A program made the position numbers and the translations under genes. Positions 1,506 to 20,985 of a stretch of 64,000 nt of DNA are shown here, piece by piece (within the stretch, counting starts at the first letter, position 1; each line of letters starts with the position of its first letter). Where the stretch lies: contig NZ_CP086235.1 in the NCBI RefSeq assembly GCF_023612095.1, forward strand, positions 641,001 to 705,000, given 5' to 3'. The DNA comes from Cytobacillus firmus (GTDB lineage Bacteria > Bacillota > Bacilli > Bacillales > Cytobacillaceae). The notes below the pieces were generated by a model. It was not told the DNA's origin. It saw only the letters and a program-made list of their open reading frames with translations, and searched no databases.

Positions 1506-1531
1506 TTTAAAAATATTGAGGGGGAAGATTG

Positions 1532-2581
1532 ATGAAGAAATTGTCTATTTTATTTTTGAGCATTCTTATGTTCAGTACGATGGTGTTGGCAGCATGCGGA
1601 GGTGGATCAAACTCAACCGGCGCTTCTGAAAAAGGATCCGATAGTGCCAGCGGAGAAGGGGGCAAGCGGACAATCAAAGTGAGTATTGGGGTCAATGACA
1701 AGCATCCGGAATATGAGGCATCCTTGAAATTTAAAGAGCTGGTTGAAGCAGAGTCAGATGATTTAACAGTGGAAGTCTATCATTCCGGCCAGATTGCCGA
1801 TGACCGTTCAGCAATTGAAATGCTTCAGTTCGGTACGCTTGATGTGACCATTCCATCTACTTCACCGCTTGTAAACTTTATACCGGCGTATGGTGTTTTC
1901 GACCTTCCATTCACGGTCCCAAATGAAGAAGTGGCAGATAAGGTTTTGGATGGTCCTTTTGGAGATAAGATGCTTGAAATGGTTGATCAGCAGGGATTAG
2001 TTGGTTTAGCCTGGTGGGAAAATGGTTTCCGTAACTTAACAAACGATGTAAAACCTGTTGCAGGTATGGAGGATGTTAAAGGATTGAAGATCCGCACAAT
2101 GGAAAATGAAATCCACTTAGATGCCTGGAAAGCCCTTGGTGCTAACCCAACTCCAATGGCATTCACTGAATTATTTACAGCTTTACAGCAGGGGACGATC
2201 GACGGACAGGAAAACCCATATCCAACAATATTGTTAAGTAAGTATCCTGAAGTACAAAAGCATGTTTCGAATACAAATCATGTGTACACACCTTTCATTT
2301 TCTTATTCAGCAAAAAGATTTGGGAAGAGCTTTCTGCAGAACAACAGGATATCATCTCGAAAGCAGCAGTAGAAGCAGGTAAGTTTAACCGTGAGCGTAC
2401 ACGTGAAGTAGCGGACGAATCACTTGAAACGCTAAAGAAAGAAATGACTTTTACAGAAATCAAAGAGGGAGAATTTGAAAAGTTCCAGGAAGCTGTGAAG
2501 CCGGTTATTGATAAATACAAAGATAAAATCGGAGCTGAAATTGTAGACGAGTTCCTTGCTGAGATTGATAAGGCAAAATAA
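1532..2581 (+). CDS. TRAP transporter substrate-binding lipoprotein (DctP family), system 1
   Basis: Extracytoplasmic solute receptor of a tripartite ATP-independent periplasmic (TRAP) transporter, which binds organic or sugar acids and delivers them to the DctQM permease. The N-terminus is a lipoprotein signal ending in the lipobox LAAC, followed by a Ser/Gly-rich linker, so it should be lipid-anchored outside the membrane. The family core KIRTMENEIHLDAW and the TIDGQENP segment are visible in the middle of the protein. I prefer ATG 1532 over the in-frame TTG at 1529 because the GAGGGGG ribosome site then sits 7 bases away. It is first in the dctPQM set, with a hairpin between it and dctQ that probably gives more receptor than permease. 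The substrate cannot be read from sequence; sugar-acid neighbours suggest an aldonate or uronate. Confidence 0.92.
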   Translation: MKKLSILFLSILMFSTMVLAACGGGSNSTGASEKGSDSASGEGGKRTIKVSIGVNDKHPEYEASLKFKELVEAESDDLTVEVYHSGQIADDRSAIEMLQFGTLDVTIPSTSPLVNFIPAYGVFDLPFTVPNEEVADKVLDGPFGDKMLEMVDQQGLVGLAWWENGFRNLTNDVKPVAGMEDVKGLKIRTMENEIHLDAWKALGANPTPMAFTELFTALQQGTIDGQENPYPTILLSKYPEVQKHVSNTNHVYTPFIFLFSKKIWEELSAEQQDIISKAAVEAGKFNRERTREVADESLETLKKEMTFTEIKEGEFEKFQEAVKPVIDKYKDKIGAEIVDEFLAEIDKAK

Positions 2582-2591
2582 ATTTGAAACG

Positions 2592-2627
2592 AGCAGCCGG
2601 TTGTCGCTCGATGGCCGGCTGCTTTTT
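2592..2627 (+). terminator. Intercistronic hairpin/attenuator after dctP
   Basis: Stem AGCAGCCGG (2592-2600) with CCGGCTGCT (2615-2623), then TTTTT. It lies between receptor and permease genes and probably lowers permease expression relative to the receptor. Confidence 0.75.
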
Positions 2628-2647
2628 GAAGAAGAGAGGCGATCAGT

Positions 2648-3181
2648 TTGATAAAAGTACTAAGATGGCTGGACGATAACTTTGAAAAATACATACTATT
2701 CGTTTTATCGGCTATCATGGTTTCTGTCATTTTTATACAGGTGTTTATGCGTTATGTGATGTCAAATTCACTGTCATGGTCAGAAGAGCTTGCGCGGTAC
2801 TGCTTTATCTGGCTGATCTATATCGGTATCAGCTATGCTGTCAAGCATCATCGCCATATTAAAGTGGATGCCGCACTCATTCTTTTTAAAGATAAAACGA
2901 AAATTTATTTTTCACTCATCTCTAATATCCTCTTTTTAGTATTCTGCGTATATGTTGTGTTCTATGGTTACGGAATTGCATCCCAACTGCTGATGTTTGG
3001 ACAGACAACACCTGCACTTCAAATTCCGACAGGCATTGTATATCTTGCTCCACCTGTTGGCATGGGGCTTGCGGGCATCCGATTGATTCAAAATATCATA
3101 GGCAATATTATATCGATTAAAAACTATGATAAAACTCATGAACTTCCAAAAGATGCTGAACAAAATATAAATGTGATCTAG
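2648..3181 (+). CDS. TRAP transporter small permease (DctQ family), system 1
   Basis: Small membrane subunit of the TRAP transporter; it pairs with DctM in the cytoplasmic membrane. The 177-residue protein has four hydrophobic segments and the family segment SWSEELARY followed by a Trp-rich helix (FIWLIYIG), typical of DctQ. The start is TTG 2648 with an AGAGGC ribosome site; no better in-frame start is present. It lies 66 bases after dctP and 23 bases before dctM, so the three form one operon. The family assignment is firm. Confidence 0.9.
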   Translation: MIKVLRWLDDNFEKYILFVLSAIMVSVIFIQVFMRYVMSNSLSWSEELARYCFIWLIYIGISYAVKHHRHIKVDAALILFKDKTKIYFSLISNILFLVFCVYVVFYGYGIASQLLMFGQTTPALQIPTGIVYLAPPVGMGLAGIRLIQNIIGNIISIKNYDKTHELPKDAEQNINVI

Positions 3182-3204
3182 ATTTTAAAGGGGGTAGATT
3201 CTGA

Positions 3205-4470
3205 ATGGCGGGGGTATTATTTGGTTCATTTGCCGCATTTCTATTTTTAACTGTTCCAATAGGAATAGCAATCGGATTAGCCGTATTATTCACCATTTTA
3301 TATACCGGCAGTATGCCAGTTGAATTCCTGATGAAGGAATTAACCAACTCAGTTGACTCTTTTCCGCTGCTGGCTGTTCCATACTTTATTATCGCCGGTG
3401 AAATCATGGGGAAGGGAGGAATATCCAAGCGGCTGTTTAATGTAGCTGATTCAATGGTAGGGAATAAGACAGGCGGCATTGCTATGGCAACGATCGTAAC
3501 CTGTATGTTTTTTGCAGCGATATCAGGTTCAGGACCTGCAACTGTTGCGGCGATTGGCGGGATTATGATTCCTGCCATGGTCCAGAAAGGTTATGATAAA
3601 CGCTTTGCAACAGCGGTTGTTGCATCAGCCGGTTCAATTGGCGTAATTATTCCGCCAAGTATTCCTATGGTTATTTATGGTGTATCCGGCAGTGTTTCGA
3701 TTGGAGATATGTTTATTGCCGGAATCATCCCGGGAATTTTGGTGGGAATTGGCTTAATGATCTATTCTTACTTTCATTCAAAAAAAATGGGCTATACTGG
3801 ATCAGACCAAAAGACAACCTTAAAGGGCATTTTAACAGCTCTTTGGGAAGCTAAATGGGCTCTCATGATTCCGATTGTTATTTTAGGTGGTATTTACGGC
3901 GGTATCTTTACGCCAACAGAAGCGGCCGTAGTTGCGGTGGTTTTCGGTTTAATTGTCAGTGTTTTTGTTTACAGAGAATTGAAATTCAAAGATTTGCCTC
4001 AGATTTTTGTGGATTCTGCTTTAACAACAGCTTCTGTGCTTGTAATTGTTGGAGCGGCTACAGCATTTGGGCGGTTATTGACACTTGAACAAATTCCGAA
4101 TCAAATCGCTGAAGCCATGATTTCCATTTCGAGCGAGCCGCTTATCATCATGATGCTCATTACCTTATTGCTCTTAATTGTAGGGTGTTTCATGGACACG
4201 ATTGCAGCGATTATCATCTTAACGCCAATACTCCTGCCAGTTGCCCTTCAGATAGGCTACGATCCGATTCACTTTGGGATTATTATGATCGTAAACCTGG
4301 CTATTGGTTTTATAACACCGCCGCTTGGTGTAAACCTGTTTGTGGGTGCTGGGATCTCAGGCCTGACACTGGAACAGCTATCTAAAGCGATTGTGCCGTT
4401 TTTCTTTGCAATGGTAGTCACACTGCTGATCATTATTGTCATACCGCAGATTTCACTTCTGTTCTTATAA
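3205..4470 (+). CDS. TRAP transporter large permease (DctM family), system 1
   Basis: Large transport subunit of the TRAP system, which drives uptake with an ion gradient. The 421 residues are almost entirely hydrophobic, with about 12 predicted membrane segments. Family signatures include the GSGPATVAAIG stretch near residue 110, the IPPSIPMVIYG stretch near residue 150 and GGIYGGIFTPTEAA near residue 230. Start ATG 3205 has a strong AAAGGGGG ribosome site. It closes the first dctPQM operon and is followed by a weak hairpin with a T-run. The length is usual for the family. Confidence 0.93.
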   Translation: MAGVLFGSFAAFLFLTVPIGIAIGLAVLFTILYTGSMPVEFLMKELTNSVDSFPLLAVPYFIIAGEIMGKGGISKRLFNVADSMVGNKTGGIAMATIVTCMFFAAISGSGPATVAAIGGIMIPAMVQKGYDKRFATAVVASAGSIGVIIPPSIPMVIYGVSGSVSIGDMFIAGIIPGILVGIGLMIYSYFHSKKMGYTGSDQKTTLKGILTALWEAKWALMIPIVILGGIYGGIFTPTEAAVVAVVFGLIVSVFVYRELKFKDLPQIFVDSALTTASVLVIVGAATAFGRLLTLEQIPNQIAEAMISISSEPLIIMMLITLLLLIVGCFMDTIAAIIILTPILLPVALQIGYDPIHFGIIMIVNLAIGFITPPLGVNLFVGAGISGLTLEQLSKAIVPFFFAMVVTLLIIIVIPQISLLFL

Positions 4471-4537: not shown

Positions 4538-4623
4538 GTGTATATTACAAAACTCAGTTTTATATTATAGGACAATGAACAACTTTAGATATTTGCAGCA
4601 AAACTAACGAAGGGGAGATGAAG

Positions 4624-5651
4624 ATGAAAAACAAGAAGTTATTTGGATTGGCAGCCACCGCGCTTGCAAGCTTCTTAATCCTCACCGGCTGCGGCGGGGA
4701 GGAAGCAGGAGGAGAAAATGGGGAGGAAAGAAAAAGGTAATCAAAGTTGCACATTACTTTGCTGAGGACCATCCCCAAAATGTGGCATTGAAAGAAAAGT
4801 TTAAAACGATTGTAGAAGAAGAAACCAACGGCGAGCTGGAAGTTCAGCTTTACCCGAACAGTACATTGGGGGCCGAGAAAGAATTCTATGATGGTGTCCG
4901 CAACGGGACAATCGAAATGGGAATTCCAGGTTTGATCATGCAGGCTGATATTCCGAAAATGGCCGCCCCGGAATGGCCATTCTTATTTAAAGATTTCGAC
5001 CATGCAAAAAAGGTATTGAATGGGCCGATTGGTGATGAATTGACAGAAGACCTTGAATCTGAACATGGTGTAAAGCCTCTTGCCTGGAGTGCAAATGGAT
5101 TTAGAATGATTTCCTCAAACAAAACGATTGATAGTTTAAAAGATCTTGACGGAATTCGCTTAAGAATGCCAAATATACCAAACTATATTGAACTGGGAAA
5201 ATTACTTGGCGCTAATGTGACTCCTCTCCCAATCTCTGAAGTATTCACAGCGATGGAGCAAAAAGTAGTTGATGGCCAGGATAATCCAATCGCTACAGTC
5301 AGGGCATCAGGCTGGTATGAAGTGCAAAGCGACATTCTGGAATCAAAGCATATGTTTAGCCCTAACCTATATATCATCAACAGTAATTTTTGGAACGGTT
5401 TGACGGAAGAGCAGCAGAAAATTATCGAAAAGGCCTCAAAAGAAGCTGCAGATTATGAATTTGACCTCCTTGAGAAGAGCTATGAAGAAGATAAGAAATT
5501 CCTCGAAGACAATGGCTTAAAGTTTACAGCTCCTTCAGAAGAGTTTTCAGCTGAGATGGAAGAAGCAGCACAGCCTTTGTATGAAGAGATTTACAGTGAA
5601 TTTGATTGGGCGAAGGATTTAGCTGATCGCATCCGTGCGGAAGCAGAGTAG
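4624..5651 (+). pseudogene. TRAP substrate-binding lipoprotein (DctP family), system 2, interrupted by a 1-base frameshift
   Basis: The coding start is ATG 4624 after an AAGGGGAG ribosome site. It reads a lipoprotein signal ending in LTGC, then a Gly/Glu linker, and stops at TAA 4738-4740. The rest of the receptor continues in another frame from about 4736 (KVIKVAHYFAEDHP) to 5651, with the usual DctP core (LRMPNIPNYIELGKLLGANV, VVDGQDNP). Adding one A to the A5 run at 4731-4735 restores a single frame across the junction. It is therefore either a sequencing indel or a recent mutation. Intact, the protein would be about 342 residues, a normal length. It heads a second dctPQM set of the island; its substrate may differ from that of system 1. 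Confidence 0.85.
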
Positions 5652-5721
5652 CAGGAAGAAGAAGCCTGGAGGATATAACCCTGTTATTCCTCCGAGCTTA
5701 AATTGCAGGGAGGAGTAAGCT

Positions 5722-6273
5722 GTGTTTAGCAAAATTAACTCTTTTTCTACCAAACTATTAAACATTGCGATTGCCTTTTCACTGGCAGCCATGTCCCTCT
5801 CCGTCTTTGGAAATGTTGTTTTGAGATATGTATTCAATTCAGGTCTTACCTGGTCTGAAGAAATGTCCCGCTACTTTTTTGTCTGGATGGTCTTCCTGGG
5901 GGCCATTGCTGCACTGAAGGATAAAATGCACCTTGGCGTGGATATCGTTGTCAATGCCTTGCCAAAGGGACTTCAGAAAGTTGCCTTTCTGATCAGTAAT
6001 GCAATAGTCCTTTACCTGCTATGGCTGATCTTGGAGGGAAGCTGGAAAATGACTCTTCTTAATATGAACAGTACCGGTCCGGCAACAGGCATGCCTCTTT
6101 CTTATTTATATGGAATAGGTGTTGTATCCAGTATTTGGATGATGGTCATCGTTATTGCCAGCCTCTTTAAGGCTATTAGAGGAAAGTCTGAAAACTTTAC
6201 GATCATTCAATCCTCAGACGACGTATTAGCAGAAGTTAACCATGATCAAGAAGAGAAGATCATTGCAAAATAG
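5722..6273 (+). CDS. TRAP transporter small permease (DctQ family), system 2
   Basis: Second small TRAP subunit, 183 residues with four hydrophobic helices. The DctQ signature LTWSEEMSRYFFVWMVFLG is visible near residue 40. Start GTG 5722 has a GGGAGGAG ribosome site 7 bases upstream. It follows the frameshifted receptor gene by 70 bases and precedes its dctM partner by 30 bases. The C-terminal 25 residues are charged and cytoplasmic. It is similar in layout but not identical to the first DctQ (2648-3181), so the two systems are probably old paralogues rather than a recent tandem copy. Confidence 0.9.
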   Translation: MFSKINSFSTKLLNIAIAFSLAAMSLSVFGNVVLRYVFNSGLTWSEEMSRYFFVWMVFLGAIAALKDKMHLGVDIVVNALPKGLQKVAFLISNAIVLYLLWLILEGSWKMTLLNMNSTGPATGMPLSYLYGIGVVSSIWMMVIVIASLFKAIRGKSENFTIIQSSDDVLAEVNHDQEEKIIAK

Positions 6274-6303
6274 CGGCGGATGGAAAGGAGGGGGATATTT
6301 TTC

Positions 6304-7578
6304 ATGATTGGAGTATTTTTAGGGTCTCTGTTTGGGTCACTGACACTAGGAGTGCCAATTGCATTTGCACTGCTTGCCAGCGGAGTTATGCTGATGTTAG
6401 TTATGGGCACATTTGATAGCCAGATTGTTGCCCAAAACCTGATTAATGGAGCTAATAACTTTTCACTAATGGCCATTCCGTTTTTTGTTTTAGCGGGAGA
6501 ACTGATGAATGCAGGAGGAATCTCCAAGCGTATCGTTGATTTTTCCATGGCGCTGGTAGGGCACATCCGTGGCGGACTTGGCTTTGTAGCCATTATTGCA
6601 AGTATTCTTTTTGCGGGATTATCAGGGTCCGCTGTTGCAGATACAGCAGCACTGGGGGCAATTTTAATTCCTATGATGATTGCCAAAGGATATAACGTTA
6701 ACACATCAACAGGCATCATTTGTGCATCAGGTATTATAGCTCCTGTTATACCGCCAAGTATTCCCATGATTTTATTTGGGGTAACTGCGGGTGTATCCAT
6801 TACAGATTTATTCATGGGCGGTATCATTCCTGGAGTGATGATGGGAGTCGGGCTCATGATTGGCTGGTTCTTTATGTCACGGAAGGATACAAGTGAGCTT
6901 CCTCCGCGAAAATCAGCCAAAGAAATTTGGAAAGCGATTCAGGATGCCAGTTTTGCTTTAATGCTTCCAGTCATCATTATTGGCGGTCTGCGCGGCGGGG
7001 TTTTTACACCAACTGAGGCTGCCGTTGTAGCTGCATTTTATGCCTTGTTTGTTGGCTTATTCATTTACCGTGAGCTGAAGCTGGAAGAGCTGTACCATGT
7101 TTTAATTGCTTCAGCAAAGACAACAAGTGTTGTGATGTTTGTGGCCGCTGCTGCCATGGTATCAGCCTGGCTTATTACGGTCGCAAATGTCCCTGCAGAG
7201 ATTGCGGGCTACATGGGATCATTAGTTGAAAGTCCTCTGATCTTAATGATGGTTATTATGATTTTCCTGCTGCTGATTGGCCTTGTGATGGATCTGACAC
7301 CGGCTATTCTTATTTTCACACCAGTGCTGCTGCCGCTTGTTAAGATGGCCGGAATCGATCCAGTCTACTTCGGAATTGTCATGGTTATCAATCTGTGTAT
7401 CGGATTGATTACACCTCCGGTGGGCACTGTTTTATATGTTGGCTGCGGAATCAGCAAAATCAGCCTGGTCGAGTTGACGAAAGGAATTTGGCCATTCCTG
7501 GTTGTTCATGTCATTGTGCTTCTTCTATTGATCCTATTCCCGGAAATTATTACAGTGCCGCTTGCATGGCTGAATTAA
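6304..7578 (+). CDS. TRAP transporter large permease (DctM family), system 2
   Basis: Large membrane subunit of the second TRAP transporter, about 424 residues and mostly hydrophobic. The family signatures are GLSGSAVADTAALGA, VIPPSIPMILFGVTAG and GGLRGGVFTPTEAA. An in-frame ATG at 6280 exists, but the ribosome site AAAGGAGGGGG (about 6283-6294) lies inside that extension, so ATG 6304 is the likely start. It ends 16 bases before the LarA-like gene, so uptake and first metabolic step are probably cotranscribed. Confidence 0.92.
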   Translation: MIGVFLGSLFGSLTLGVPIAFALLASGVMLMLVMGTFDSQIVAQNLINGANNFSLMAIPFFVLAGELMNAGGISKRIVDFSMALVGHIRGGLGFVAIIASILFAGLSGSAVADTAALGAILIPMMIAKGYNVNTSTGIICASGIIAPVIPPSIPMILFGVTAGVSITDLFMGGIIPGVMMGVGLMIGWFFMSRKDTSELPPRKSAKEIWKAIQDASFALMLPVIIIGGLRGGVFTPTEAAVVAAFYALFVGLFIYRELKLEELYHVLIASAKTTSVVMFVAAAAMVSAWLITVANVPAEIAGYMGSLVESPLILMMVIMIFLLLIGLVMDLTPAILIFTPVLLPLVKMAGIDPVYFGIVMVINLCIGLITPPVGTVLYVGCGISKISLVELTKGIWPFLVVHVIVLLLLILFPEIITVPLAWLN

Positions 7579-7594: not shown

Positions 7595-8845
7595 ATGGAC
7601 ATAATTAAAGAAATCTTAAAGGATATCCCTATTCCCAGAATGGTAAAAGTAAGACAGAATTTCCACGCACCCCAGCTGGAAGATGTGGCGGATGAGGTAC
7701 GGAAAACCCTGAATGACACCAATGTGCTGGCCAGAATTAATGAAGGAGATTCCGTGGCGATTGCGGTTGGAAGCAGGGGACTGGCAGATTTGCCTGTTCT
7801 GGTTCGTGAAACGGTCAGAGAAATTAAACGTGTCGGAGGGAATCCGTTTATCGTACCTGCCATGGGGAGCCATGGAGGTGCTACCTCGGAAGGCCAGATT
7901 GATGTGCTTCACCAATTGGGTGTAACGGAAGGTGCTGTTGAGGCACCGATTAAATCCTCCATGGAAGTTGTCAAGATTGGCGAACTTCCAAATGGGCTTC
8001 CGGTCTATATTGACCGAAACGCCTATGAGGCTGACAAGATTGTTGTCATTAACAGGGTCAAACCTCATACAGCATTCCGCGGACCGGTTGAAAGCGGCCT
8101 TATGAAAATGATTACCATCGGGCTCGGAAAACAAAAAGGGGCAGAAGCCGCTCATGCCTATAGTTTTAAATATATGGCAGAGCATGTGCCGGAAATGGCC
8201 AAAATTTCATTATCAGAAGCTCCAATCATTTTCGGCCTTGCCTCTCTCGAAAATGCTTATGACAAGATTGCAAAGGTTGTTGCAGTTCCGGCAGAAGAAC
8301 TGGAGACAGTGGAACCGGAACTTCTGAAAGAGGCCAAATCTTTAATGCCAAAAATTCATTTTGATGAGTTTGATGTCCTGATTGTCGACGAGCTTGGAAA
8401 AGATATTTCAGGTGACGGGATGGACCCGAATATTACAGGGAATTTCGCTACGCCATATGCAACCGGCGGACCGGATATAAAAAGAACCGTGGTGCTGGGT
8501 TTAACCGAAAAAACGCATGGAAATGCGAATGGCATCGGCATGGCAGACATGACAACGAAAGCAGTAGTAGATGAAATTATATGGGAAAAAGGCTATGCAA
8601 ATGCTCTGACCAGCACCGTGATCGAAGTCATTAAGCTTCCAATGGTGCTTGAAACAAAAGAGCTTGCTGTCAAGGCTGCTATTAAAACCTGCAATGCCTT
8701 TGATTTAAACAAGGTAAAAGCTGTTCGAATCAAGAATACATTAGACATCGGAGAAATCTGGATTTCAGAGAGTTTGATTGAGGAAGCGAAACAAAACAGC
8801 AATTTGAAAATTATTTCCGATCTCCAGGAATTGGTGCTCGATTAA
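7595..8845 (+). CDS. LarA-like nickel-pincer racemase/epimerase (lactate racemase superfamily)
   Basis: Member of the LarA superfamily, which inverts C2 of 2-hydroxyacids with a nickel-pincer nucleotide cofactor; known members include lactate racemase and D-gluconate 2-epimerases. In this 416-residue protein Lys171 and His187 are 16 residues apart, the same spacing as the cofactor-bearing Lys184 and nickel-ligand His200 of Lactobacillus plantarum LarA. His93 (GSHGG) and His158 (KPH) fit the two catalytic histidines. The gene sits between TRAP permease dctM and a sugar-acid dehydratase, and the cofactor genes larB, larC and larE plus a nickel transporter lie in the same island (22.7-26.2 kb). 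A sugar-acid C2 epimerase is therefore the best guess. Substrate is inference. Start ATG 7595 with AAGGAGAAAAGG ribosome site. Confidence 0.82.
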   Translation: MDIIKEILKDIPIPRMVKVRQNFHAPQLEDVADEVRKTLNDTNVLARINEGDSVAIAVGSRGLADLPVLVRETVREIKRVGGNPFIVPAMGSHGGATSEGQIDVLHQLGVTEGAVEAPIKSSMEVVKIGELPNGLPVYIDRNAYEADKIVVINRVKPHTAFRGPVESGLMKMITIGLGKQKGAEAAHAYSFKYMAEHVPEMAKISLSEAPIIFGLASLENAYDKIAKVVAVPAEELETVEPELLKEAKSLMPKIHFDEFDVLIVDELGKDISGDGMDPNITGNFATPYATGGPDIKRTVVLGLTEKTHGNANGIGMADMTTKAVVDEIIWEKGYANALTSTVIEVIKLPMVLETKELAVKAAIKTCNAFDLNKVKAVRIKNTLDIGEIWISESLIEEAKQNSNLKIISDLQELVLD

Positions 8846-8902: not shown

Positions 8903-11113
8903 ATGACACATTTATACCCGCTTATAGATAATCCTGTAAATCCATACCGTGACAATGTACAGGGAAAAGCAAATGAACCGATTACGGTAGCTGGACTTTT
9001 GGACCGGGCAAAACAGACACTTGGTTCTTCCTATGAAGGAGGAAAGCCGGATTGGACACTCGAGGAAATTTACAACCGCCTTGAAGTAAATGCTCCGCGA
9101 ATTGCCATTATCGGAGGTTCATCTGACCATCCCGCTCACATCATGGACTATCAGACCTCTGCACGTGCAGCCATCCGCATCTGGCAGAATGGCGGGGTTC
9201 CCTTTTACTTTTCCACCCCGGTTATGTGTGATGGCACTGCCCAAAGCAATCAGGGGATGAGCTATTCCCTTCAAAGCAGGAACGCTGTTGCCCAAATGGT
9301 CGTCAATCAGCTGGAAGCACATAGTTATCATGGTGCATTCGTCATTCAAGGATGTGATAAGCAGCCGCTGGGCGTTGTCAGTGCGCTGGCACATGTTGAT
9401 CGGGTAAGACGCAGCCGCGGCGAAGCTCCATTTTTTGCAACATTTGCCCCTGCACATGTTCTCGAAGGCGGATCGATTCCGGACGATGTAATCGCAGAGC
9501 TTGAAGAGTTGGCGAAGAAAGCTGAATTGAATGGTGCGGCTGATGTGGCGGCTGATTTGCGTGACACAATGGCATATATCCTGCAATGTTCATCAAATAC
9601 AGCCTTCCAGGGTGTGTTCGAGCGTGCATATGAGAGGGGCATCTTAACAAAGGAACAGCATAAATATTTTGAAATGAGGCTGGCAGTTGCGACATGTGAC
9701 GGACAGGGAGGGGTTTGTGCCTTTAATGGTACCGGTAATAGTTCCAGACATCTTGTAGCTGGACTGGGCCTTGTTCATCCGGCGGTGGAGCTGCTGACAG
9801 ATCCGCCGACACAAAGGCAGATCAATTCGGTTCTTGACAGCTTTGCCACTATGATTAATGAAGAAAAATATGGTGTTTCCAATATTGTGGCTGCCAATAT
9901 CAAGAATGCGATCCGCATTCATAGTGCATCCGGCGGTTCTACTAACCTGATGATGCATATTGTTGCGGGCATGCTCTATGGCGGATACAATTTTAGTCTA
10001 TGGGATTTGGACCGCATACATCATGAGCATCCGATTCCTGATTTGTTTGACTATAGCCTGACAGAAGGCCGTGATATTTACTCGCTCGCCATGCAGTGCT
10101 GCAGCGGAACGAGCAGGGGAATGGAAACGCTTTTTTACGAATTGCTTGAACATGGTGTACCGATGGATCAGAATGCGCCAACAGTTGCAGCCAGATCCTG
10201 GAGAGAGCGTCTCGCCATCACAAGAAGCCTCCAGGCATCAAATGTAAAAGAAAATCCTGTTATATTATCTGCTGAAGAACCGCGCAGGGCATTTAGCGGA
10301 GTGGATGTTTTGCAGGGCAATTTCTTTGAAAGCGCAGTGGTAAAAATCAGCGGAATGCCGACACCGCAGCTTGATCAATTCGATGATAAGCTAGCATTTG
10401 TTCTTTATTTTGAGAATGAAGATGATGCAAACAGAAGCCTGCTTGACTCGAATCTGCTTAACGATATTAAAAAGGATAAGCTATTTGACCATAACCTGCT
10501 GCTTGAAACACTGAAATATAACAACAGAGCGGAATGGGAACTTTTAAAAGAGGAATCATACGAAAAGCTTTTTGACGAGATGGCTGAAAAAGGCATATTG
10601 AAAATTTCAGTTGTCATTGCCGGTCAGGGTCCGGTAGCCTTTGGAATGCCGGAAATGTTTACACCTATGCAGCATATTAATGCCAACCGGGTCATGAAAA
10701 AGGTCGCAACCATTATCAGTGACGGGCGCTATTCCGGCGTTACATACGGTGCTGCAATTGGACATATGACACCGGAAGCATACGAAGGCGGGGGCATCGG
10801 CTTCCTTCAGACAGGTGATGTTGTACATCTTCAGCTTCGGGGAAGGCGCATTGATTTTGTAGATAAAACCCAGCTTTTCGCAGGGAAGGTTGTCCATTCC
10901 TTTACTGACAGCTTAAAAGCAGATCGCCAGTCTCTTGTGGAAGAGAGAAAGCAGCGAATGAAGGCACGCCAGAAGCTGGTTGCAGCAAGCAATCGCATGT
11001 ATGGCCATACGGATGCTGCAAACGGAGTGGTTCCGCTGGCCGTAGCCGAGGATGCAGTTCTGGATTATGAGACAGATGTTTTGCTTCAAGAAGCAGGCAC
11101 TGTTGCAAAATAA
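8903..11113 (+). CDS. IlvD/Edd-family sugar-acid dehydratase (YjhG/YagF type)
   Basis: Iron-sulfur dehydratase of the dihydroxyacid dehydratase/6-phosphogluconate dehydratase family; YjhG and YagF of Escherichia coli are D-xylonate dehydratases. It converts an aldonate to a 2-keto-3-deoxy acid in the cytoplasm. Likely cluster cysteines occur in VMCDGTAQ, IQGCDKQPLG and ATCDGQGGVC. The 736 residues exceed the roughly 650 of YjhG/YagF, the extra length being mainly in the last third. Start ATG 8903 has a TAAGGAG ribosome site. The neighbours (KdaD-like FAH dehydratase and ketoglutarate semialdehyde dehydrogenase) fit a pentonate (Weimberg) route. Family is secure, substrate inferred. Confidence 0.88.
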   Translation: MTHLYPLIDNPVNPYRDNVQGKANEPITVAGLLDRAKQTLGSSYEGGKPDWTLEEIYNRLEVNAPRIAIIGGSSDHPAHIMDYQTSARAAIRIWQNGGVPFYFSTPVMCDGTAQSNQGMSYSLQSRNAVAQMVVNQLEAHSYHGAFVIQGCDKQPLGVVSALAHVDRVRRSRGEAPFFATFAPAHVLEGGSIPDDVIAELEELAKKAELNGAADVAADLRDTMAYILQCSSNTAFQGVFERAYERGILTKEQHKYFEMRLAVATCDGQGGVCAFNGTGNSSRHLVAGLGLVHPAVELLTDPPTQRQINSVLDSFATMINEEKYGVSNIVAANIKNAIRIHSASGGSTNLMMHIVAGMLYGGYNFSLWDLDRIHHEHPIPDLFDYSLTEGRDIYSLAMQCCSGTSRGMETLFYELLEHGVPMDQNAPTVAARSWRERLAITRSLQASNVKENPVILSAEEPRRAFSGVDVLQGNFFESAVVKISGMPTPQLDQFDDKLAFVLYFENEDDANRSLLDSNLLNDIKKDKLFDHNLLLETLKYNNRAEWELLKEESYEKLFDEMAEKGILKISVVIAGQGPVAFGMPEMFTPMQHINANRVMKKVATIISDGRYSGVTYGAAIGHMTPEAYEGGGIGFLQTGDVVHLQLRGRRIDFVDKTQLFAGKVVHSFTDSLKADRQSLVEERKQRMKARQKLVAASNRMYGHTDAANGVVPLAVAEDAVLDYETDVLLQEAGTVAK

Positions 11114-11176: not shown

Positions 11177-11944
11177 ATGCCTATTATCCAATCAGTGGAA
11201 CGTGCATTAAAAATTATGGATTTATTTGACGAGCGGGAAAGAGAATTATCCATTACAGAAATAAGCAAAAGAATGAATCTGCATAAAAGCACGGTTCATT
11301 CGCTGCTGAAGACTTTGCAGGAACAGAGATACATCTCCCAGAATGAGGAAAATGGAAAGTATCGTCTGGGACTTAAGCTTTTCGAACGGGGCAATATGGT
11401 CCTGAGTAATCTTGATTTGCGGAAAGTTGCCAGAAAGCATCTTGAAAGGCTATCCGCCATGACGAACTTAACGGTCCATCTGGTCATTCTCGACGGACAG
11501 GATGGAGTTTATATCGATAAGGTTGAAGGAAGCGGAGTTACGGTTCTTTACTCCCGCATCGGACGCCGGGTTCCCGTTCATACAAGCGCGGTAGGCAAAT
11601 CGCTCATTTCAACGAAAACAGATGCCGAACTGGATCAGTTTCTTGAAAACTATCAGTACACAAAACAAACACCTAAATCAATCTCTTCGAAAGAAGAATT
11701 ACTCTCGGAGGTTGCTCATGTCCGCACGGCTGGCTATTCAGTGGATAACGAAGAAAACGAACCGGGCATTGTCTGTTATGCTGTTCCGATCAAAGACTAT
11801 TCCGGTCAGGTTATAGCCGGGATAAGCATGTCCATGCCTGCTTCTAAAGTAACGGATGAAATCCGTGAACACCACGTGGGACTTCTGAAAGAGTGCAGCA
11901 CCAGCATATCGCAGGATCTCGGGTATGAGTACCAAAAAATTTAA
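11177..11944 (+). CDS. IclR family transcriptional regulator
   Basis: DNA-binding regulator of 255 residues. The N-terminal winged helix-turn-helix (residues 1-70) contains SITEISKRMNLHKSTVHSLL, and the C-terminal IclR effector domain has the GRRVPVHTSAVGKSLIS and EENEPGIVCYAVPI segments. IclR proteins such as KdgR and XynR control sugar-acid catabolism by binding a keto-deoxy or related intermediate. This one lies in the middle of the island and is the only evident regulator there, so it probably controls it. Start ATG 11177 has an AGGAGAG ribosome site. Possible operators include the inverted repeat at 1474-1505. Confidence 0.92.
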   Translation: MPIIQSVERALKIMDLFDERERELSITEISKRMNLHKSTVHSLLKTLQEQRYISQNEENGKYRLGLKLFERGNMVLSNLDLRKVARKHLERLSAMTNLTVHLVILDGQDGVYIDKVEGSGVTVLYSRIGRRVPVHTSAVGKSLISTKTDAELDQFLENYQYTKQTPKSISSKEELLSEVAHVRTAGYSVDNEENEPGIVCYAVPIKDYSGQVIAGISMSMPASKVTDEIREHHVGLLKECSTSISQDLGYEYQKI

Positions 11945-12027: not shown

Positions 12028-12096
12028 TAGCCTAAATACACATTGAATTAATTAAAAATTTTAAAAATGGCAAATAGTCATTCAGGAGGAGTTAAC

Positions 12097-12993
12097 ATGA
12101 GAATTATCCGCTATCTAAAAGGAAATGAAAAACAACTGGCAGCTGTAACGAATGAGAATGAAGCAGCCGACCTTCCATTCAGCGATTTTATGTCACTGAT
12201 TGCTAAAGCGCGCGAAGATAACAAAACACCGTTTGATATTGTAAAACAGATTGCCGAGGAATCAGAAAAACTGCCGCTGGAAAATCTTCAATTAACCACT
12301 CCAATTGATGCTCCAGAAGTTTGGGCTTCAGGCGTAACCTATAAAAAAAGCAGGGAAGCGCGAAACTATGAAGCCACACAAGGAAAGCTTGACAGAGAAA
12401 CGTTCTATGACAAAGTCTATGATGCGGTGCGTCCGGAAATCTTTTTCAAGTCAACATCTGCAAGAACGGTAGGTCCCAATGATCCTGTATACCTTCGGTC
12501 CGATTCCAACTGGCAAATCCCGGAGCCTGAGCTGGGGCTTGTCATTGATAAAGATGGCAAGGTGCTTGGCTATACGGCTGGAAATGATATGAGCTGCCGG
12601 GATATAGAAGGGGAAAATCCGCTGTACCTGCCGCAGGCAAAGGTTTGGAAGAATTCCTGTTCCATAGGGCCGGCTATTGTATTGGCCGAGACTGTTTCAG
12701 ATCCTTATGAATTTCAGATTATTTGCCGCATCTACCGGGATGAAGAGCTTGTATTTTATGGAGATGCTCAAGTCAGCCAGCTGAAGCGCACCCTGGATGA
12801 GTTGGTCCAATACCTGGTGCTGGATAACCAAATCTTTGACGGAACGGTCCTTCTTACAGGAACCTGCGTTGTGCCGCCAAACGAATTTACTTTAGCGGAA
12901 AATGACAGGATTGAAATTGAAATCCCTGGCATTGGCATCCTGAATAACCCGGTTGTCCAAAGCCAGCAAGTAGGGCAGGCAGCTAAGGGGTGA
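12097..12993 (+). CDS. FAH-family 2-keto-3-deoxy-pentonate dehydratase (KdaD/XylX-like)
   Basis: Fumarylacetoacetate-hydrolase fold enzyme of 298 residues. Segments EIFFKSTSARTVG, NWQIPEPELGLV and GNDMSCRDIEGENPLYLPQ match the subgroup of 2-keto-3-deoxy-D-arabinonate/xylonate dehydratases, which make 2-oxoglutarate semialdehyde. The acidic residues in EPELG and the Asp/Glu of NDMSCRDIEG are the expected metal site. I prefer ATG 12097 to the upstream ATG 12067 because the CAGGAGGAG ribosome site lies between them. The aldehyde dehydrogenase two genes downstream would take the product to 2-oxoglutarate. It ends 4 bases before the UxaA small-domain gene. Assignment by motif memory, not by search. 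Confidence 0.8.
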   Translation: MRIIRYLKGNEKQLAAVTNENEAADLPFSDFMSLIAKAREDNKTPFDIVKQIAEESEKLPLENLQLTTPIDAPEVWASGVTYKKSREARNYEATQGKLDRETFYDKVYDAVRPEIFFKSTSARTVGPNDPVYLRSDSNWQIPEPELGLVIDKDGKVLGYTAGNDMSCRDIEGENPLYLPQAKVWKNSCSIGPAIVLAETVSDPYEFQIICRIYRDEELVFYGDAQVSQLKRTLDELVQYLVLDNQIFDGTVLLTGTCVVPPNEFTLAENDRIEIEIPGIGILNNPVVQSQQVGQAAKG

Positions 12994-12997
12994 GCTG

Positions 12998-13297
12998 ATG
13001 AGTGGGTACAAGACACTGTTTTTAAATGAAAAGGATAGTGTAGCTGTAGCTCTTTCCGATATACCTGCGGGAGCGGAAGTGATTGTTAAAACAGAGGGCA
13101 TCGAAAAAACAGTTAGAATTCTTGAGCCTATCCGTTTTGGCCATAAATTTGCAGTACGGGCCATTTCCCAGGGAGACGACATTATTAAATATGGTGAGGT
13201 AATCGGGGCAGCAGTCGCTCCAATCGATGCAGGGGAACATGTGCATGTTCATAATCTCGAAGGCAAAAGAGGAAGGGGTGACAAAGTTGTTCAATGA
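12998..13297 (+). CDS. UxaA-type dehydratase, SAF-domain small subunit
   Basis: 99-residue SAF domain, equal to the N-terminal part of altronate/galactarate dehydratase (UxaA/GarD) or the small subunit SuyA. The pattern DSVAVALSDIPAGAEV near the start, IRFGHKFAV and ISQGDDIIKYGEVIG is typical. It acts with the catalytic large part encoded next. Start ATG 12998 has a AAGGGGTGAG ribosome site. Stop TGA at 13295-13297 lies in the same frame as the following gene. A split enzyme is common in this family, so I do not read the stop as damage. Confidence 0.85.
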   Translation: MSGYKTLFLNEKDSVAVALSDIPAGAEVIVKTEGIEKTVRILEPIRFGHKFAVRAISQGDDIIKYGEVIGAAVAPIDAGEHVHVHNLEGKRGRGDKVVQ

Positions 13298-13309: not shown

Positions 13310-14458
13310 TTGGGGTACCGCCGTCCTGATGGCCGTGTTGGAGTAAGAAACCATGTGCTGATCCTGCCAACGATTACTTGTGCAACGCAAACGGCACAGC
13401 GGGTAACAGAGCTTGTAAGCGGAACCGTTACATTTATTCATCAGCATGGCTGTGCACAGGTTGGAACCGATTATGACCAGACGGCCAGAACATATGCCGG
13501 AATGGGAATGAACCCAAATGTTTACGGTGTGATCGTTCTCGGCTTAGGCTGTGAAACCCATCAGGCACACCGTATTGGCGACGAAATTGCCAAATGCGGC
13601 AAGCCGGTCGAGACCGTATCGATACAGGAACATGGCGGCACACTTCAAACCATTGCCGAGGTGGCTAAAATTGCGGTGAAAATGGTTCAGGATGCATCTA
13701 TGGTGCAGCGTGAGCTATGTGATTTCAGCGAATTGATTGTCGGTACAGAATGCGGGGGCTCGGATGCATGCTCCGGCCTTTCGGCAAACCCGGCTGTTGG
13801 GCGTACAAGCGACATGCTTGTTGAACATGGCGGCACCGCCATTTTAGCTGAAACAACCGAATTAATCGGTGCAGAGCATTTGCTGGCCAACCGTGCAGCG
13901 AATGATTCAGTCGCAAAAAAGGCGTATGCCGTCATTAAAATGATGGAAAACCGCTCCATTCAGATGGGTGTTGATATCCGTACCGGCAATCCAAGCCCGG
14001 GCAACATTGAAGGCGGATTGAGCTCACTTGAAGAAAAGTCGCTTGGAGCTGCAACAAAGTCAGGCACGACACGTTTGGAAGAAGTGATTGACTATGCAGA
14101 AAGGCCAACCAAAAAAGGGCTGGTCTGGATGGATACCCCGGGCCATGATATTGAACAGTTAACCGGTATGGTTGCAGGCGGGGCACAAATTGTTCTTTTC
14201 ACAAGCGGTCGCGGAACACCAACCGGATCGCCGATTGCACCTGTTATTAAAATCTCGACAAACACACCAATGTTCGAACGCATGAACGAAAACATGGATC
14301 TTGATGCCGGAACCATCGTTGACGGCAAAGAAACAGTCGGAGGAGTCGGCGGACGGATCATGAAGGAAATCCAGGCTGTCGCAAATGGCAAATTGACAAA
14401 AGCGGAAATCTTGAAGCAGCATGACTTTGGAATTTGGCGTATTGGCCCAACATTTTAA
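13310..14458 (+). CDS. UxaA-type dehydratase, large catalytic subunit (5' end probably frameshifted)
   Basis: C-terminal catalytic part of the altronate/galactarate dehydratase family (382 residues read). The opening [13 protein letters not shown], the [12 protein letters not shown] segment and the Cys-containing [12 protein letters not shown] are family hallmarks of the iron-dependent enzyme. The open frame begins at TTG 13310, which has no ribosome site. If one T is added to T4 at 13308-13311, coding starts earlier at GTG 13278 or TTG 13287, giving [16 protein letters not shown] behind an AGGGGTG ribosome site. I think that is the true start. Likely substrates are altronate, galactarate or another aldarate; (2R)-sulfolactate lyase (SuyB) is a less likely alternative given the sugar-acid context. 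Confidence 0.82.
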
Positions 14459-14477
14459 TAAAAAGGAGATTATAAGC

Positions 14478-15944
14478 ATGAAAACTACAATCGAAACCAA
14501 AACATACAGCAACTTCATTAATAACGAATGGAAAGAATCTGCATCCGGAAATGTCATTGAAAGCATTAACCCTGCTACAAAGGAAGCAGTCGGCTACGTT
14601 CAAAAATCTAATGAAGAAGAGCTGAACCAGGCTGTAGAGGCGGCATTCAAAGCGAAGAAAGCATGGCGCAAGCTTGGCCAGGCAGCAAGAGGACAGCTAT
14701 TGTTCCAGACAGCAAACATCCTTGAATCTAGGCTGGATGAAATTGCGGAAAGCATGACGAGGGAAATGGGAAAGACCCTTCCTGAAGCAAAAGGAGAAAC
14801 AGCCCGAGGCATTGCCATCCTCCGTTATTATGCAGGAGAAGGAATGCGCAAAGAGGGGGACGTGATTCCATCAACTGATAAAGATGCCCTTATGTTCACA
14901 AAGCGTGCTCCCCTTGGAGTTGTAGGAGTTATCACTCCCTGGAACTTCCCGGTTGCGATTCCAATCTGGAAAATCGCGCCTGCACTTGTGTACGGAAATA
15001 CAGTTGTATTCAAGCCTGCGAGCGAAGCGGCTGTCACTGCTGCTAAGGTGGTCGAGTGCTTTGCAGAGGCCGGCTTTCCTGAAGGTGTCTTAAATTTTGT
15101 AACGGGTTCAGGCTCTGAGATCGGCCAGGGATTGATCGATCATCCTAAATTGAATGCCATTACTTTTACAGGGTCAGAGAGTGTTGGACAAAGCGTAGCG
15201 AAAGCAGCTGCTGCGCGCGGAATCAAATTCCAGCTTGAAATGGGCGGAAAGAACCCTGTTATTGTTGCGAAAAATGCCAATCTTGACCAGGCTGTTGAAG
15301 CGGTCATCAGCGGCGGATTCCGCTCATCTGGACAAAAATGTACGGCTTCAAGCCGCGTTATCGTAGAAGCCGATGTTTATAACGAATTCAAGCAAAAGCT
15401 TATCGAAGCTTCTGAAAAAATCACTGTCGGAAACGGCCTTGAAGAAGGCATCTGGATGGGGCCTTGTGCAAGCGAAAGCCAATTCAACACATTTAACAAG
15501 TACATTGAAATCGGAAAAAATGAAGGTGCCAGACTGGTTCATGGCGGCGAAGTGCTGACAGGCGGTGAATATGATAACGGCTTCTTCGTTAAACCGGCTA
15601 TTTTTGAAGAAGTCACAGCTGATATGACGATTGCACAGGAAGAGATCTTTGGGCCGGTCATTGCGCTTATTAGAGCCGTTGACCTGGAAGAAGCAATCGA
15701 AGTGGCAAACAATACTAAATATGGATTGAGTGCATCGATCTTTACTTCAGATATCAGCTCGATTCTGGAATTCATCGATGAAATTGAAGCGGGTCTCGTC
15801 CGGATCAATGCGGAAAGCGCCGGTGTAGAACTTCAGGCGCCATTTGGCGGAATGAAGGCTTCAAGTACAGGCTCACGTGAACAAGGTGAAGCTGCAAAAG
15901 AATTCTATACAGCCATTAAAACAGTTTTCATAAAAGGCTCTTAA
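14478..15944 (+). CDS. 2-Oxoglutarate (alpha-ketoglutaric) semialdehyde dehydrogenase
   Basis: NAD(P)-dependent aldehyde dehydrogenase, 488 residues, the same length as Bacillus GucD/YcbD. It oxidises 2-oxoglutarate semialdehyde, the end product of glucarate, galactarate and pentonate dehydration, to 2-oxoglutarate. Visible motifs are PWNFPVAIP (cofactor binding), [11 protein letters not shown] with the general-base Glu and [10 protein letters not shown] with the catalytic Cys. Start ATG 14478 follows AAAAAGGAGATTATAAGC. An upstream in-frame start at 14421 overlaps the preceding gene and has no ribosome site. A strong terminator follows at 15977-16011, so this closes the first catabolic block. 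Confidence 0.9.
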
Positions 15945-16011: not shown

Positions 16012-16035
16012 ATCAAAAAGTTGCGAGGTGCCCAT

Positions 16036-17184
16036 ATGAAAATTACGAAACTTTCATTATATAAAGTTCCGCCGCGCTGGCTGTTTTTAAAAATTGAAAC
16101 AGATGAAGGCATTTCCGGCTGGGGAGAGCCTGTTGTCGAAGGGCGCGCTGAAACAGTAAAGGCAGCCGTCAATGAACTATCAGATTATATTATTGGCCGT
16201 AATCCTAATGACATCGAAGATATATGGCAAACAATGTACCGTGGCGGTTTTTACCGGGGGGGCCCAATTTTGATGAGTGCGATCTCCGGGATCGAGCAGG
16301 CGCTCTGGGATATTAAAGGCAAGTATTACAATATACCAGTCTATGAAATGCTCGGGGGCAAAGCGCGCCAGAAGATTAAAGTGTATTCCTGGATCGGGGG
16401 GGACCGGCCGGCTGAAGTTGCTGCGGAAGCAAAAGTAAAACAGGAACAGGGCTTTCAAGCGATTAAGATGAACGCCTCTGAAGAAATGAATTACATAGAC
16501 AGCTTTTCAAAAGTGGAAGCGGTTATTGAGCGTGTGGCTTCTATTCGTGAGGCACTCGGCAAGGACTTCGGCATAGGGGTTGATTTTCATGGCCGCGTTC
16601 ATAAAACCATGGCCAAAACATTAGTGAAAGAGCTGGAGCCATATCGCCCAATGTTCATTGAAGAACCGGTGCTTCCGGAAAACAATGAGGCTCTGCGTGA
16701 GATTGCCCTGCATACAACCTGTCCAATTGCCACCGGTGAAAGGATGTATACACGCTGGGGATTCAAGCAGCTTCTGCAGGACGGATATGTAGATATTATC
16801 CAGCCTGACCTTTCGCACACAGGCGGTATTCTGGAAGGAAAGAAAATTGCCGCAATGGCTGAGGCGTATGATGTGTCGATTGCACCGCATTGTCCTCTTG
16901 GACCAATGACACTGGCATCTTCGGTTCATCTGGATGCTTCTACTCCAAATTTCATCATCCAGGAACAAAGCCTTGGCATTCACTATAACCAGGGAATGGA
17001 CATTCTCGATTATATTAATAATCCTGAAGTATTCGCCTATAAAGATGGCTATGTAAACATTCCGGATCAGCCTGGACTCGGTATAGAGATTAACGAGGAA
17101 AAAGTAAAGCAGGCAGCAGAAGCCGGACATGATTGGAAAAATCCTATTTGGCGCCATGAAGATGGCAGCATTGCCGAATGGTAA
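16036..17184 (+). CDS. dgoD: D-galactonate dehydratase
   Basis: Enolase-superfamily (mandelate racemase group) enzyme that dehydrates D-galactonate to 2-keto-3-deoxy-D-galactonate. From ATG 16036 the protein has 382 residues, the length of E. coli DgoD, and shares long near-identical segments with it: [48 protein letters not shown] and the C-terminal IWRHEDGS. Metal ligands fit DFHGR (Asp), IEEPV (Glu) and TGERM (Glu); the catalytic His is in APHCP. GAGGTG is the ribosome site. It leads a block with a DapA-family enzyme, KDG kinase and KDPG aldolase, which together would give pyruvate and glyceraldehyde 3-phosphate. Confidence 0.93.
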
Positions 17185-17200: not shown

Positions 17201-18112
17201 ATGAGCTTTCATGGAATTATTCCCCCGGTTGTCACTTTATTTGATGAAGCGGGAAATTTGGATTTGGAGCTGAATAGAAGGTATCTTGATAAGCTGATTT
17301 CTCGGAATACTCATGGGATATTGCTGATGGGCAGCTCAGGTGAGTTTTCTTCTCTTTCCATCGAAGAGCGGAAGCTTTATGTCAGGGAAATGATTAAACA
17401 TATCCATGGGCGCGTAAAAGTTATGGTTGGTGTGGGCCACACAGCTCTTAAGGAAGTCCTTGAACTGACTTCTTATGCAGAGGAACAGGGAGCAGATGGT
17501 GTGCTTGTTGTCAGCCCTTACTATTGGAAGCTTTCGGATGATCAGCTTTATCGCTTTTATTCAACTGTTGCCAATCATACAGAGCTTCCCGTGTTTATTT
17601 ACAATATCCCGCAATTAACCGGCCAAAATTTGCCGGTTGAGCTAATCGTCAAATTGGCCAAAGACTATCCGAACATTTCTGGCATTAAAGAAACTGTCGG
17701 TGATTTTGGCCATATTCGGCAGGTAATTACAGAAGTGAAAAAGGTCCGTCCTGATTTCCTTGTTTTCTCAGCCTTTGACGAGCATATGCTCCCGGCCCTG
17801 ATGATTGGCGCCGCTGGCAGCATCAATGGCAGTGCTGTATTTGCTCCAGAAGTCTCAGTAGATTTATATGAATCTTATCAAAGAGGGGATTTAGCTGAAG
17901 CCCGGAATAACCACCAGCAAATCTCCAGGCTGATGGATGTTTATACGTATTGCCCGACCTTTTTTACAACGATGAAAGAAGCTGTTCATCAGCGCTGGTT
18001 TGAAAAAGCAGCAGGCCATCGTGTTCCGTTTGATGTATACCCTGCCGATCTACGTGAAAATGTTCGAAGTTTATTACAAACTATTAAAACGAAAGAAGGC
18101 GTCCAATTATGA
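17201..18112 (+). CDS. DapA-family aldolase/dehydratase
   Basis: Dihydrodipicolinate synthase/N-acetylneuraminate lyase family protein of 303 residues, a cytoplasmic TIM barrel that forms a Schiff base. The pattern GSSGEFSSLSIEER (residues 44-57), YNIPQLTG with the conserved Tyr, and ISGIKETVGD with the Schiff-base Lys are visible. Members near sugar-acid genes are KDG aldolases, 5-keto-4-deoxyglucarate dehydratases or L-2-keto-3-deoxyarabinonate dehydratases; sequence alone does not choose. Start ATG 17201 has a GAGGAGG ribosome site 17 bases after dgoD. The stop overlaps the next start by 4 bases, which suggests translational coupling. Confidence 0.88.
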   Translation: MSFHGIIPPVVTLFDEAGNLDLELNRRYLDKLISRNTHGILLMGSSGEFSSLSIEERKLYVREMIKHIHGRVKVMVGVGHTALKEVLELTSYAEEQGADGVLVVSPYYWKLSDDQLYRFYSTVANHTELPVFIYNIPQLTGQNLPVELIVKLAKDYPNISGIKETVGDFGHIRQVITEVKKVRPDFLVFSAFDEHMLPALMIGAAGSINGSAVFAPEVSVDLYESYQRGDLAEARNNHQQISRLMDVYTYCPTFFTTMKEAVHQRWFEKAAGHRVPFDVYPADLRENVRSLLQTIKTKEGVQL

Positions 18113-19099: not shown

Positions 19100-19123
19100 A
19101 CTATAATTCCAGGGGTGAAAAGG

Positions 19124-20083: not shown

Positions 20084-20101
20084 GAAAGGATAGTGCCGAA
20101 T

Positions 20102-20985
20102 ATGAAACTAGCTGCTTTCACGATTAATTCTCAACAGCATATTGGTGTTGTCCAGGGAGAGAAAGCCATCAGCTTAACAATACTTGCCGGAAATCAATTT
20201 CCTTCGTGCCTGAAAACCTTTATAGAAAGAAGTGAAGAACTGCTGCCGCTTGCTGAAAAGCTTATTAGCCAGGGTACCAATGAGGAGGCTGTTTTTCCAA
20301 TATCCGATGTGAAAATCCTTCCGCCGATGCAGGCTCCGGAAAAAATCATTTGCGTTGGCTTGAATTATATTGATCATTGCAGAGAAACCGGAATGGAGCC
20401 GCCTGCTTCACCGGTGATCTTTTCAAAATATGCGAATGCCATCGTCGGCCATCATGACGCGGTGGAGATTCCTATCAATTCAAGTGAAGTTGATTTTGAG
20501 GCAGAGCTTGCTGTTGTCATGGGAAAGGAAGCTAAGCGGGTAACGGAAGAAGAGGCAAACGATTATGTTTTTGGCTACACGATCATGAATGATATTAGCG
20601 CGCGCGATTTGCAATTTAAGGACGGACAGTGGTCCCGGGCAAAACAGCCGACACCTTTGCGCCAACAGGACCAGTGATTGTGACAAAGGATGAAGCAGGG
20701 GATCCGCACAGTCTATCAATCTCACTCGAACTCAATGGGGAAATTATGCAAGATTCCAATACAAGCAACCTGATATTTACCATACCGCAGATTATCTCCT
20801 TCTTATCGCAGTCTATGACGCTAAGACCGGGTGACTTAATTGCAACAGGAACGCCTCCAGGAGTTGGAATGGGCCGGGATCCAAAGGTGTGGCTGAAAGA
20901 CGGTGACAAAATGAGTATTACCATTGAAAACATCGGAACACTTTCCAATTACGTAAAAGGTGATTCACAGAAGAAAGAGGGCTGA
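20102..20985 (+). pseudogene. Fumarylacetoacetate hydrolase family protein, interrupted by a 1-base frameshift
   Basis: FAH-fold hydrolase/isomerase/decarboxylase. Reading starts at ATG 20102 behind AAGAAAGGA and runs through ICVGLNYIDHC, PVIFSKYANAIVG and DFEAELAVVMG, then stops at 20677. The rest, starting [17 protein letters not shown] and including [15 protein letters not shown], lies in another frame to 20985. One extra A in the A4 run at 20641-20644 restores [14 protein letters not shown] and a 294-residue protein of normal length. It differs from the KdaD-like FAH at 12097. Members hydrolyse or decarboxylate short 2,4-diketo acids or acylpyruvates; substrate unknown. Probably an assembly indel, otherwise a recent knockout. 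Confidence 0.85.

Follow-up and report, generated by a model that had tools for sequence, protein, structure and literature searches.

The window, a 64,000-nucleotide stretch of DNA from the soil bacterium Cytobacillus firmus, carries at 7595..8845 (+) an open frame of 416 aa for a LarA-superfamily protein of group 22 (hereafter LarAH), which we propose to be a sugar-acid 2-epimerase dependent on the nickel-pincer nucleotide (NPN). The gene is part of a same-strand run in which a TRAP permease is followed after 16 bases by LarAH, after another 57 bases by an IlvD/Edd-type dehydratase and after 63 more by an IclR regulator. Two TRAP transporters (dctP, dctQ, dctM) precede LarAH on the plus strand (1529..4470 and 4782..7578), each with a DctP subunit matching PF03480 and with dctQ and dctM judged from their translations. 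The second dctP (4500-5651) is broken near its start, with the signal peptide and the mature part in different frames; the gene is a single ORF of 341-378 aa in 7 relatives, and a sequencing error is possible.

Downstream, all on the plus strand, lie the 736-aa divergent IlvD/Edd-family dehydratase (8903..11113; PF00920/PF24877), the KdgR-like IclR-family regulator (11177..11944; PF01614/PF09339; best NCBIfam model KdgR, 228 bits, under the cut-off of 275) and FAH1, a FAH-family protein (12067..12993) whose closest solved relative is the 2-keto-3-deoxy-D-arabinonate dehydratase 2q18 (239 bits, the next reaching 71). These are followed by the SAF-domain small subunit (12998..13297; PF08666, 36.9 bits) and the large subunit (13310..14458; PF20629/PF04295; 243 bits to galactarate dehydratase 6u7l) of a UxaA/GarD-type dehydratase, an alpha-ketoglutaric semialdehyde dehydrogenase (GucD; 14421..15944; NF042993, 854 bits, cut-off 770), a galactonate dehydratase of the enolase superfamily (DgoD; 16021..17184; NF010624, 686 bits, cut-off 311), a DHDPS-family lyase/dehydratase (17201..18112; PF00701), a U32-like protein of 315 aa (18109..19056; PF01136, 27.3 bits), a member of the D-2-hydroxyacid dehydrogenase family (19115..20083; PF02826), a second FAH-family gene (20093..20985), a PfkB-family sugar-acid kinase resembling KDG/KDGal kinases (20991..21947; PF00294; NF040938, 217 bits, under the cut-off of 400) and a KDPG/KHG aldolase (21963..22592; TIGR01182, 196 bits, cut-off 156). 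The second FAH-family gene is split over two overlapping frames (20093-20677 and 20629-20985, with PF01557 on the first piece) and is either a pseudogene or the product of a sequencing error. The U32-like protein recurs in 41 of the 57 loci with an IlvD-type neighbour (best 80 of 120) and has no solved relatives at E 0.001. Sulfolactate lyase, also a two-part enzyme, was considered for the UxaA-type pair and rejected, as the island protein retains four cysteines that align with galactarate dehydratase. These are presumably the four that, according to the available part of PMC6336799, are conserved in the rest of the superfamily and missing from sulfolactate lyase.

Genes for the NPN cofactor complete the inventory: larC2 (22691..23146, -; NF052512, 150 bits, cut-off 50), larB (23208..23948, +; NF033503, 295 bits, cut-off 175), larC1 (23976..24698, +; TIGR00299, 220 bits, cut-off 90), larE (24719..25543, +; TIGR00268, 349 bits, cut-off 150) and a possible NicO-like nickel permease (25604..26227, +). 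The earlier note had listed larB, two larC halves, larE and a nickel permease; the first four are all over their NCBIfam cut-offs, and the permease is retained as a possibility (PF03824, 28.1 bits against 27.7).

LarAH scores 564 bits against NF052515, the NCBIfam model for 'nickel pincer cofactor-dependent isomerase, group 22' (curated cut-off 400), and 44 bits against Pfam Lar_N (cut-off 23); PF04015 DUF362 matches as well (29.5 bits, cut-off 24). It is neither lactate racemase proper (NF033504, 22.0 bits against a cut-off of 460; residues D72, Y294 and K298 absent) nor malate racemase (38 bits against 500). LarAH resembles solved LarA proteins only weakly in sequence, with a best E of 0.014 for the single sequence and 0.016 for a profile, and the group-22 alignment profile gives two matches to solved structures (E 0.016 and 0.46). 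We conclude that LarAH is very likely a LarA-type enzyme. The group-22 score and the sugar-acid catabolic neighbours bear out the earlier observation of a LarA-type gene in a sugar-acid island. The name group 22, whose number we assume to be that of Desguin 2020, is already public in NCBIfam; our additions are the pairing with the dehydratase, the mannonate context of one clade, the co-occurrence with cofactor genes and the differences in residues, part of which may already stand in published supplements. As a LarA branch, group 22 is widespread: 57 of 398 genomes of the window's class (taken as Bacilli) have a match over cut-off, and relatives with 41-54% identity are among the best plasmid records, including those of alphaproteobacteria and a haloarchaeon.

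The residues R61, H93, H158, K171 and H187 are invariant in all 37 group-22 sequences. K171 and H187 align with the NPN-anchoring lysine K184 and the nickel-ligand histidine H200 of LarA in both reference families, with the Lys position shifted in one hhalign comparison with five lactate racemases. H93 and H158 are the counterparts of the LarA acid-base histidines H108 and H174, and R61 is that of the phosphate-binding arginine R75; the four active-site positions proposed initially (His93, His158, Lys171 and His187) thus stand. The reference rows came from ORFs in 6 of 14 malate-racemase and 5 of 12 lactate-racemase loci, read on the plus strand; among the six malate-racemase ORFs, L134 is short (340 aa) and L138, on a very long tree branch, is probably misread. 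Structure alignments show the two-domain LarA fold for LarAH, at 15-17% identity to the lactate racemase LarA of Lactiplantibacillus plantarum (5huq, 6c1w). LarA D72, Y294 and K298, by contrast, are replaced in all 37 rows by a gap, T/S and A/P/G/H, respectively, and substrate recognition must therefore differ from that of LarA, as does the sugar-acid neighbourhood of the gene. The LarA assignment consequently holds for the superfamily, with its NPN-anchoring and acid-base residues, but not for a close relationship to LarA or to the D-gluconate 2-epimerase GntE. GntE (groups 19 and 20; 4nar, which we take to be the T. maritima enzyme) catalyses the same type of reaction as proposed here; its signature residues are F175, F176, W358 and T359, and the C-terminal alignment is too uncertain to place the last two. 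In LarA Sp and LarA Bw (9q3j, 9q3k) an Asn replaces the second His, whereas group 22 keeps both catalytic histidines.

The most constant partner of LarAH is the 736-aa IlvD/Edd-type dehydratase, which is found at most two ORFs downstream in 57 of 80 loci (55-93% identity, best 80 of 120). Within these 57, FAH1 is present in 54, the semialdehyde dehydrogenase in 46 and the UxaA-type large subunit in 40. L054 was missed by ORF calling and counted as lacking the dehydratase, and its IlvD-type label in the tree is provisional; in L025 the dehydratase lies three ORFs downstream. In a separate draw, the dehydratase occurs in 39 of 398 genomes (E up to 1e-150). In 27 of these, a group-22 match lies no more than 5 kb away on the same strand, as a mere fragment in G052 and G120. 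Two counts speak against the pairing: 6 of the 39 genomes have no group-22 match (two of the six with stops in the dehydratase), and the dehydratase is missing from 28 of the 61 genomes with listed group-22 matches. This comparison comprised 102 group-22 places in the 61 genomes, leaving out G021 and G140, whose matches are under the cut-off, and the weakest further matches. Since neighbouring genes resemble a 2-keto-3-deoxypentonate dehydratase and an alpha-ketoglutarate-semialdehyde dehydrogenase, the substrate of LarAH is likely an aldonate. The conserved pair and its aldonate-type neighbours uphold the sugar-acid context read from the window. The island also holds a candidate six-carbon exit, with DgoD and the KDPG-type aldolase over cut-off and the kinase between them under it. 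As a caution, gene context matched measured activity in some cases only in Desguin 2020 (PMC7583248).

Another branch of group 22 offers independent support for C2 epimerisation. In a sister clade of 12 loci (SH-aLRT 100), no IlvD-type gene is nearby and an SDR follows LarAH directly in all 12. The SDRs tested (two from the sister clade and one from a plasmid) have D-mannonate oxidoreductase as their best model at 267-271 bits, just under the cut-off of 281. Within the limited flanks, UxaC is present in 7 of the 12 loci (one copy cut by the flank) and Gnd in 5, and a gluconokinase-like FGGY kinase is found at 58% or more in 6 and at 40% in one more, with 489 and 469 bits for such kinases, under the gluconokinase cut-off of 649. 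On a Paenibacillus megaplasmid, UxaC, LarAH, SDR, larE, larB, larC1 and larC2 stand in a row. By context, the sister-clade genes spell out a route from hexuronate via fructuronate and D-mannonate to D-gluconate, in which LarAH would supply the missing 2-epimerase; context labels had been put on the tree before the genes of the 12 loci were checked. GntE was proposed on context similar in kind, according to the available part of PMC6978723, where mannonate kinase and phosphomannonate epimerase are given for the same step in Lactobacillus suebicus.

Taken with the dehydratase pairing, this makes it likely, in our estimation, that LarAH is a sugar-acid C2-epimerase of the aldonate class. In the proposed reaction, K171 would hold the NPN, for which PMC12611868 gives a mass of about 449 Da, H187 would be the nickel ligand and R61 would contact the phosphate; H93 or H158 would remove the proton of the C2 hydroxyl while the C2 hydride passes to the cofactor, and return of the hydride to the other face, with reprotonation by the other histidine, would leave C2 inverted. 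Aldonates would enter via the TRAP transporter, and where their C2 configuration does not suit the dehydratases, LarAH would convert them into the usable epimer. The adjoining dehydratase would then form a 2-keto-3-deoxy acid. For five-carbon acids, the FAH protein and semialdehyde dehydrogenase would lead on to alpha-ketoglutarate; for six-carbon acids, the kinase and aldolase would yield pyruvate and a triose phosphate. Conversion of D-mannonate to D-gluconate is, in textbook stereodescriptors, a change from (2S,3S) to (2R,3S), and we infer that this is the most likely direction for LarAH. For the island it predicts one of three conversions, D-lyxonate to D-xylonate, L-ribonate to L-arabinonate or D-talonate to D-galactonate, whose products dehydratases of the IlvD/Edd and DgoD types are known to use. 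The sequence does not single out one pentonate.

LarAH could instead act on aldarates, converting a galactarate or glucarate epimer to the form used by a GarD-like dehydratase, with the semialdehyde dehydrogenase serving an aldarate route. GarD-type genes do recur near group 22 in distant loci: aldarate genes with a GarD of 909 bits in L060; GarD, KdgD, GucD and glucarate dehydratase, all over cut-off, in L063; and proteins of the altronate dehydratase family on Sulfitobacter and Loktanella plasmids, with 365 and 377 bits to the GarD model, under its cut-off. The same Sulfitobacter plasmid carries an L-arabinonate dehydratase gene, and the Loktanella plasmid IlvD/Edd, larB and larC; UxaA-type genes accompany a group-22 relative on a Sporomusa plasmid and a mandelate-racemase-family gene one in Rubrobacter. 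In addition, LarAH32 has promiscuous activity on D-arabinarate, as given in the available part of PMC11770544. In the island itself, however, the UxaA-type protein is a two-part GarD relative under cut-off (249 versus 731 bits), the DHDPS-family protein is not KdgD (90 versus 374 bits), and DgoD and FAH1 point to aldonates. Moreover, L043, L045, L046 and L049 keep LarAH, the IlvD-type dehydratase, FAH1 and the aldehyde dehydrogenase with no UxaA-type genes within their flanks, and we regard an aldarate substrate as unlikely.

Racemisation of lactate, glycerate or another simple 2-hydroxy acid, with sugar-acid neighbours present by chance or co-regulation, appears quite improbable. It would account for the 2-hydroxyacid dehydrogenase (at least 50% identity) in 26 of the 57 IlvD-type loci (best 80 of 120) and for a plasmid-borne Haladaptatus relative (L143:6968-8302, 42% identity) that adjoins an L-lactate permease, a misfit with the sugar-acid reading and possibly a lactate-acting member. 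It fits poorly with the dehydratase pairing in 57 of 80 loci (best 80 of 120), the hexuronate-type genes of the sister clade and the absence of LarA residues Y294 and K298.

Cofactor genes co-occur with group 22 well beyond the window. Among the 398 genomes, group 22 and LarB are both over cut-off in 55, group 22 alone in 2, LarB alone in 47 (102 with LarB in all) and neither in 294; LarB is thus present in 55 of 57 group-22 genomes versus 47 of 341 others (Fisher p ~2e-36, kinship ignored). No other Lar_N match was found in 37 of the 57 group-22 genomes, 36 of which have LarB; in 2 of the 57, Lar_N overlooked even the group-22 protein, so further LarAHs may have escaped it as well, and a weak match in G023 was taken for another LarAH. 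The window's genome, scanned as one contig of 4.38 Mb, has one Lar_N match, LarAH, and one LarC2, and the simplest reading is that its cofactor genes serve this LarAH, which would be loaded with NPN. That LarAH is a DUF362-clan protein with another role and without NPN is very improbable: the PF04015 match, the unconserved D72, Y294 and K298 and the two group-22 genomes without LarB over cut-off would suit it, but the invariant lysine anchor, nickel-ligand histidine, phosphate arginine and acid-base histidines, the LarB co-occurrence, and larB in the flanks of 18 of 80 loci (best 80 of 120) and beside group-22 relatives on plasmids argue against it. If LarAH does epimerise sugar acids, these bacteria would need nickel as a growth factor when living on such acids, and the superfamily would have reached sugar-acid epimerisation another way than with the known LarA substrate residues.

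LarC of L. plantarum is fused by a programmed frameshift. Here the halves are on opposite strands (22691-23146, - and 23976-24698, +) with larB between them, and such a fusion cannot occur, as the sole LarC2 of the genome is not on the strand of larC1. In 20 related genomes, the length of the best-matching open frame indicates a free-standing LarC2 in 14 and a fused one in 6; the halves are about 5 kb apart in L078 and L081.

A broader, more tentative idea is that the island is a funnel for all aldonate diastereomers, in which the C2-epimerase and two dehydratase types would together cover the four C2/C3 configurations; we consider this conceivable but doubtful. The two types would have opposite stereochemical demands: dehydratases of the IlvD/Edd and DgoD type would take (2R,3S) acids and those of the UxaA type (2S,3R) acids, where the IlvD-type demand and all stereodescriptors are presumed from relatives. 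The four D-pentonates would give the same 2-keto-3-deoxy-D-pentonate, for which one FAH dehydratase and one semialdehyde dehydrogenase would be enough, and the nickel enzyme would halve the number of dehydratases required. The UxaA-type demand would follow from the substrates of relatives given in the available part of PMC6336799. The same part of this paper (Watanabe 2019) describes a D-arabinonate cluster of Herbaspirillum huttiense in which, much as proposed for the island, a UxaA-type D-arabinonate dehydratase and a FAH-type KDP dehydratase lead to alpha-ketoglutarate. Unlike the island, the cluster has no LarA homologue mentioned there, and its FAH enzymes are described as only poorly related to the archaeal one that FAH1 resembles.

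The suggestion that the whole set is portable held in part. Seven relatives, none with a group-22 match, are without about 22-26 kb at this site, and their prfB-ftsX gap is 2.0-6.7 kb versus 28.3 kb here; the block therefore differs by gain or loss at the site. Among the best 80 loci (flanks of up to 10 kb), prfB flanks 8 of the Cytobacillus clade (L002-L008, L072) and no other. No mobility gene emerged: no recombinase was seen among the island ORFs scanned with Pfam, and an integrase-core ORF (53687-54379) is far outside. GC runs at 40-47% across the window without a step. The idea of a portable set is also limited by larB, which only 12 of the 57 IlvD-type loci (best 80 of 120) have inside the 10-kb flanks retrieved.

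Group 22 is absent from the tested group numbers in Table 1 of Desguin 2020 (PMC7583248), the available part of the 2024 survey (PMC11770544) names no group-22 activity, and we recognised no published assay of a group-22 enzyme in the literature, supplementary tables aside. That part of the survey reports tests of Sporomusa termitida LarAH62 (malate racemase) and LarAH66 (hydrophobic hydroxyacid racemase), and an S. termitida plasmid also carries a LarAH relative at 47% identity. Among IlvD-type loci, a membrane-like protein of 445-462 aa lies directly downstream of LarAH in L023, L025, L027, L028, L047, L050, L056 and L066, and a distant relative (31-33%) follows the SDR in three sister-clade loci. 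It is possibly a sugar-acid permease; the two examples searched (L023:11295-12638 and L067:12081-13493) have no Pfam or NCBIfam match. Finally, the island copy in L005, a record titled Pseudomonas sp. ISL-84, is 92-98% identical to Cytobacillus genes, and the record is probably mislabelled or contaminated.
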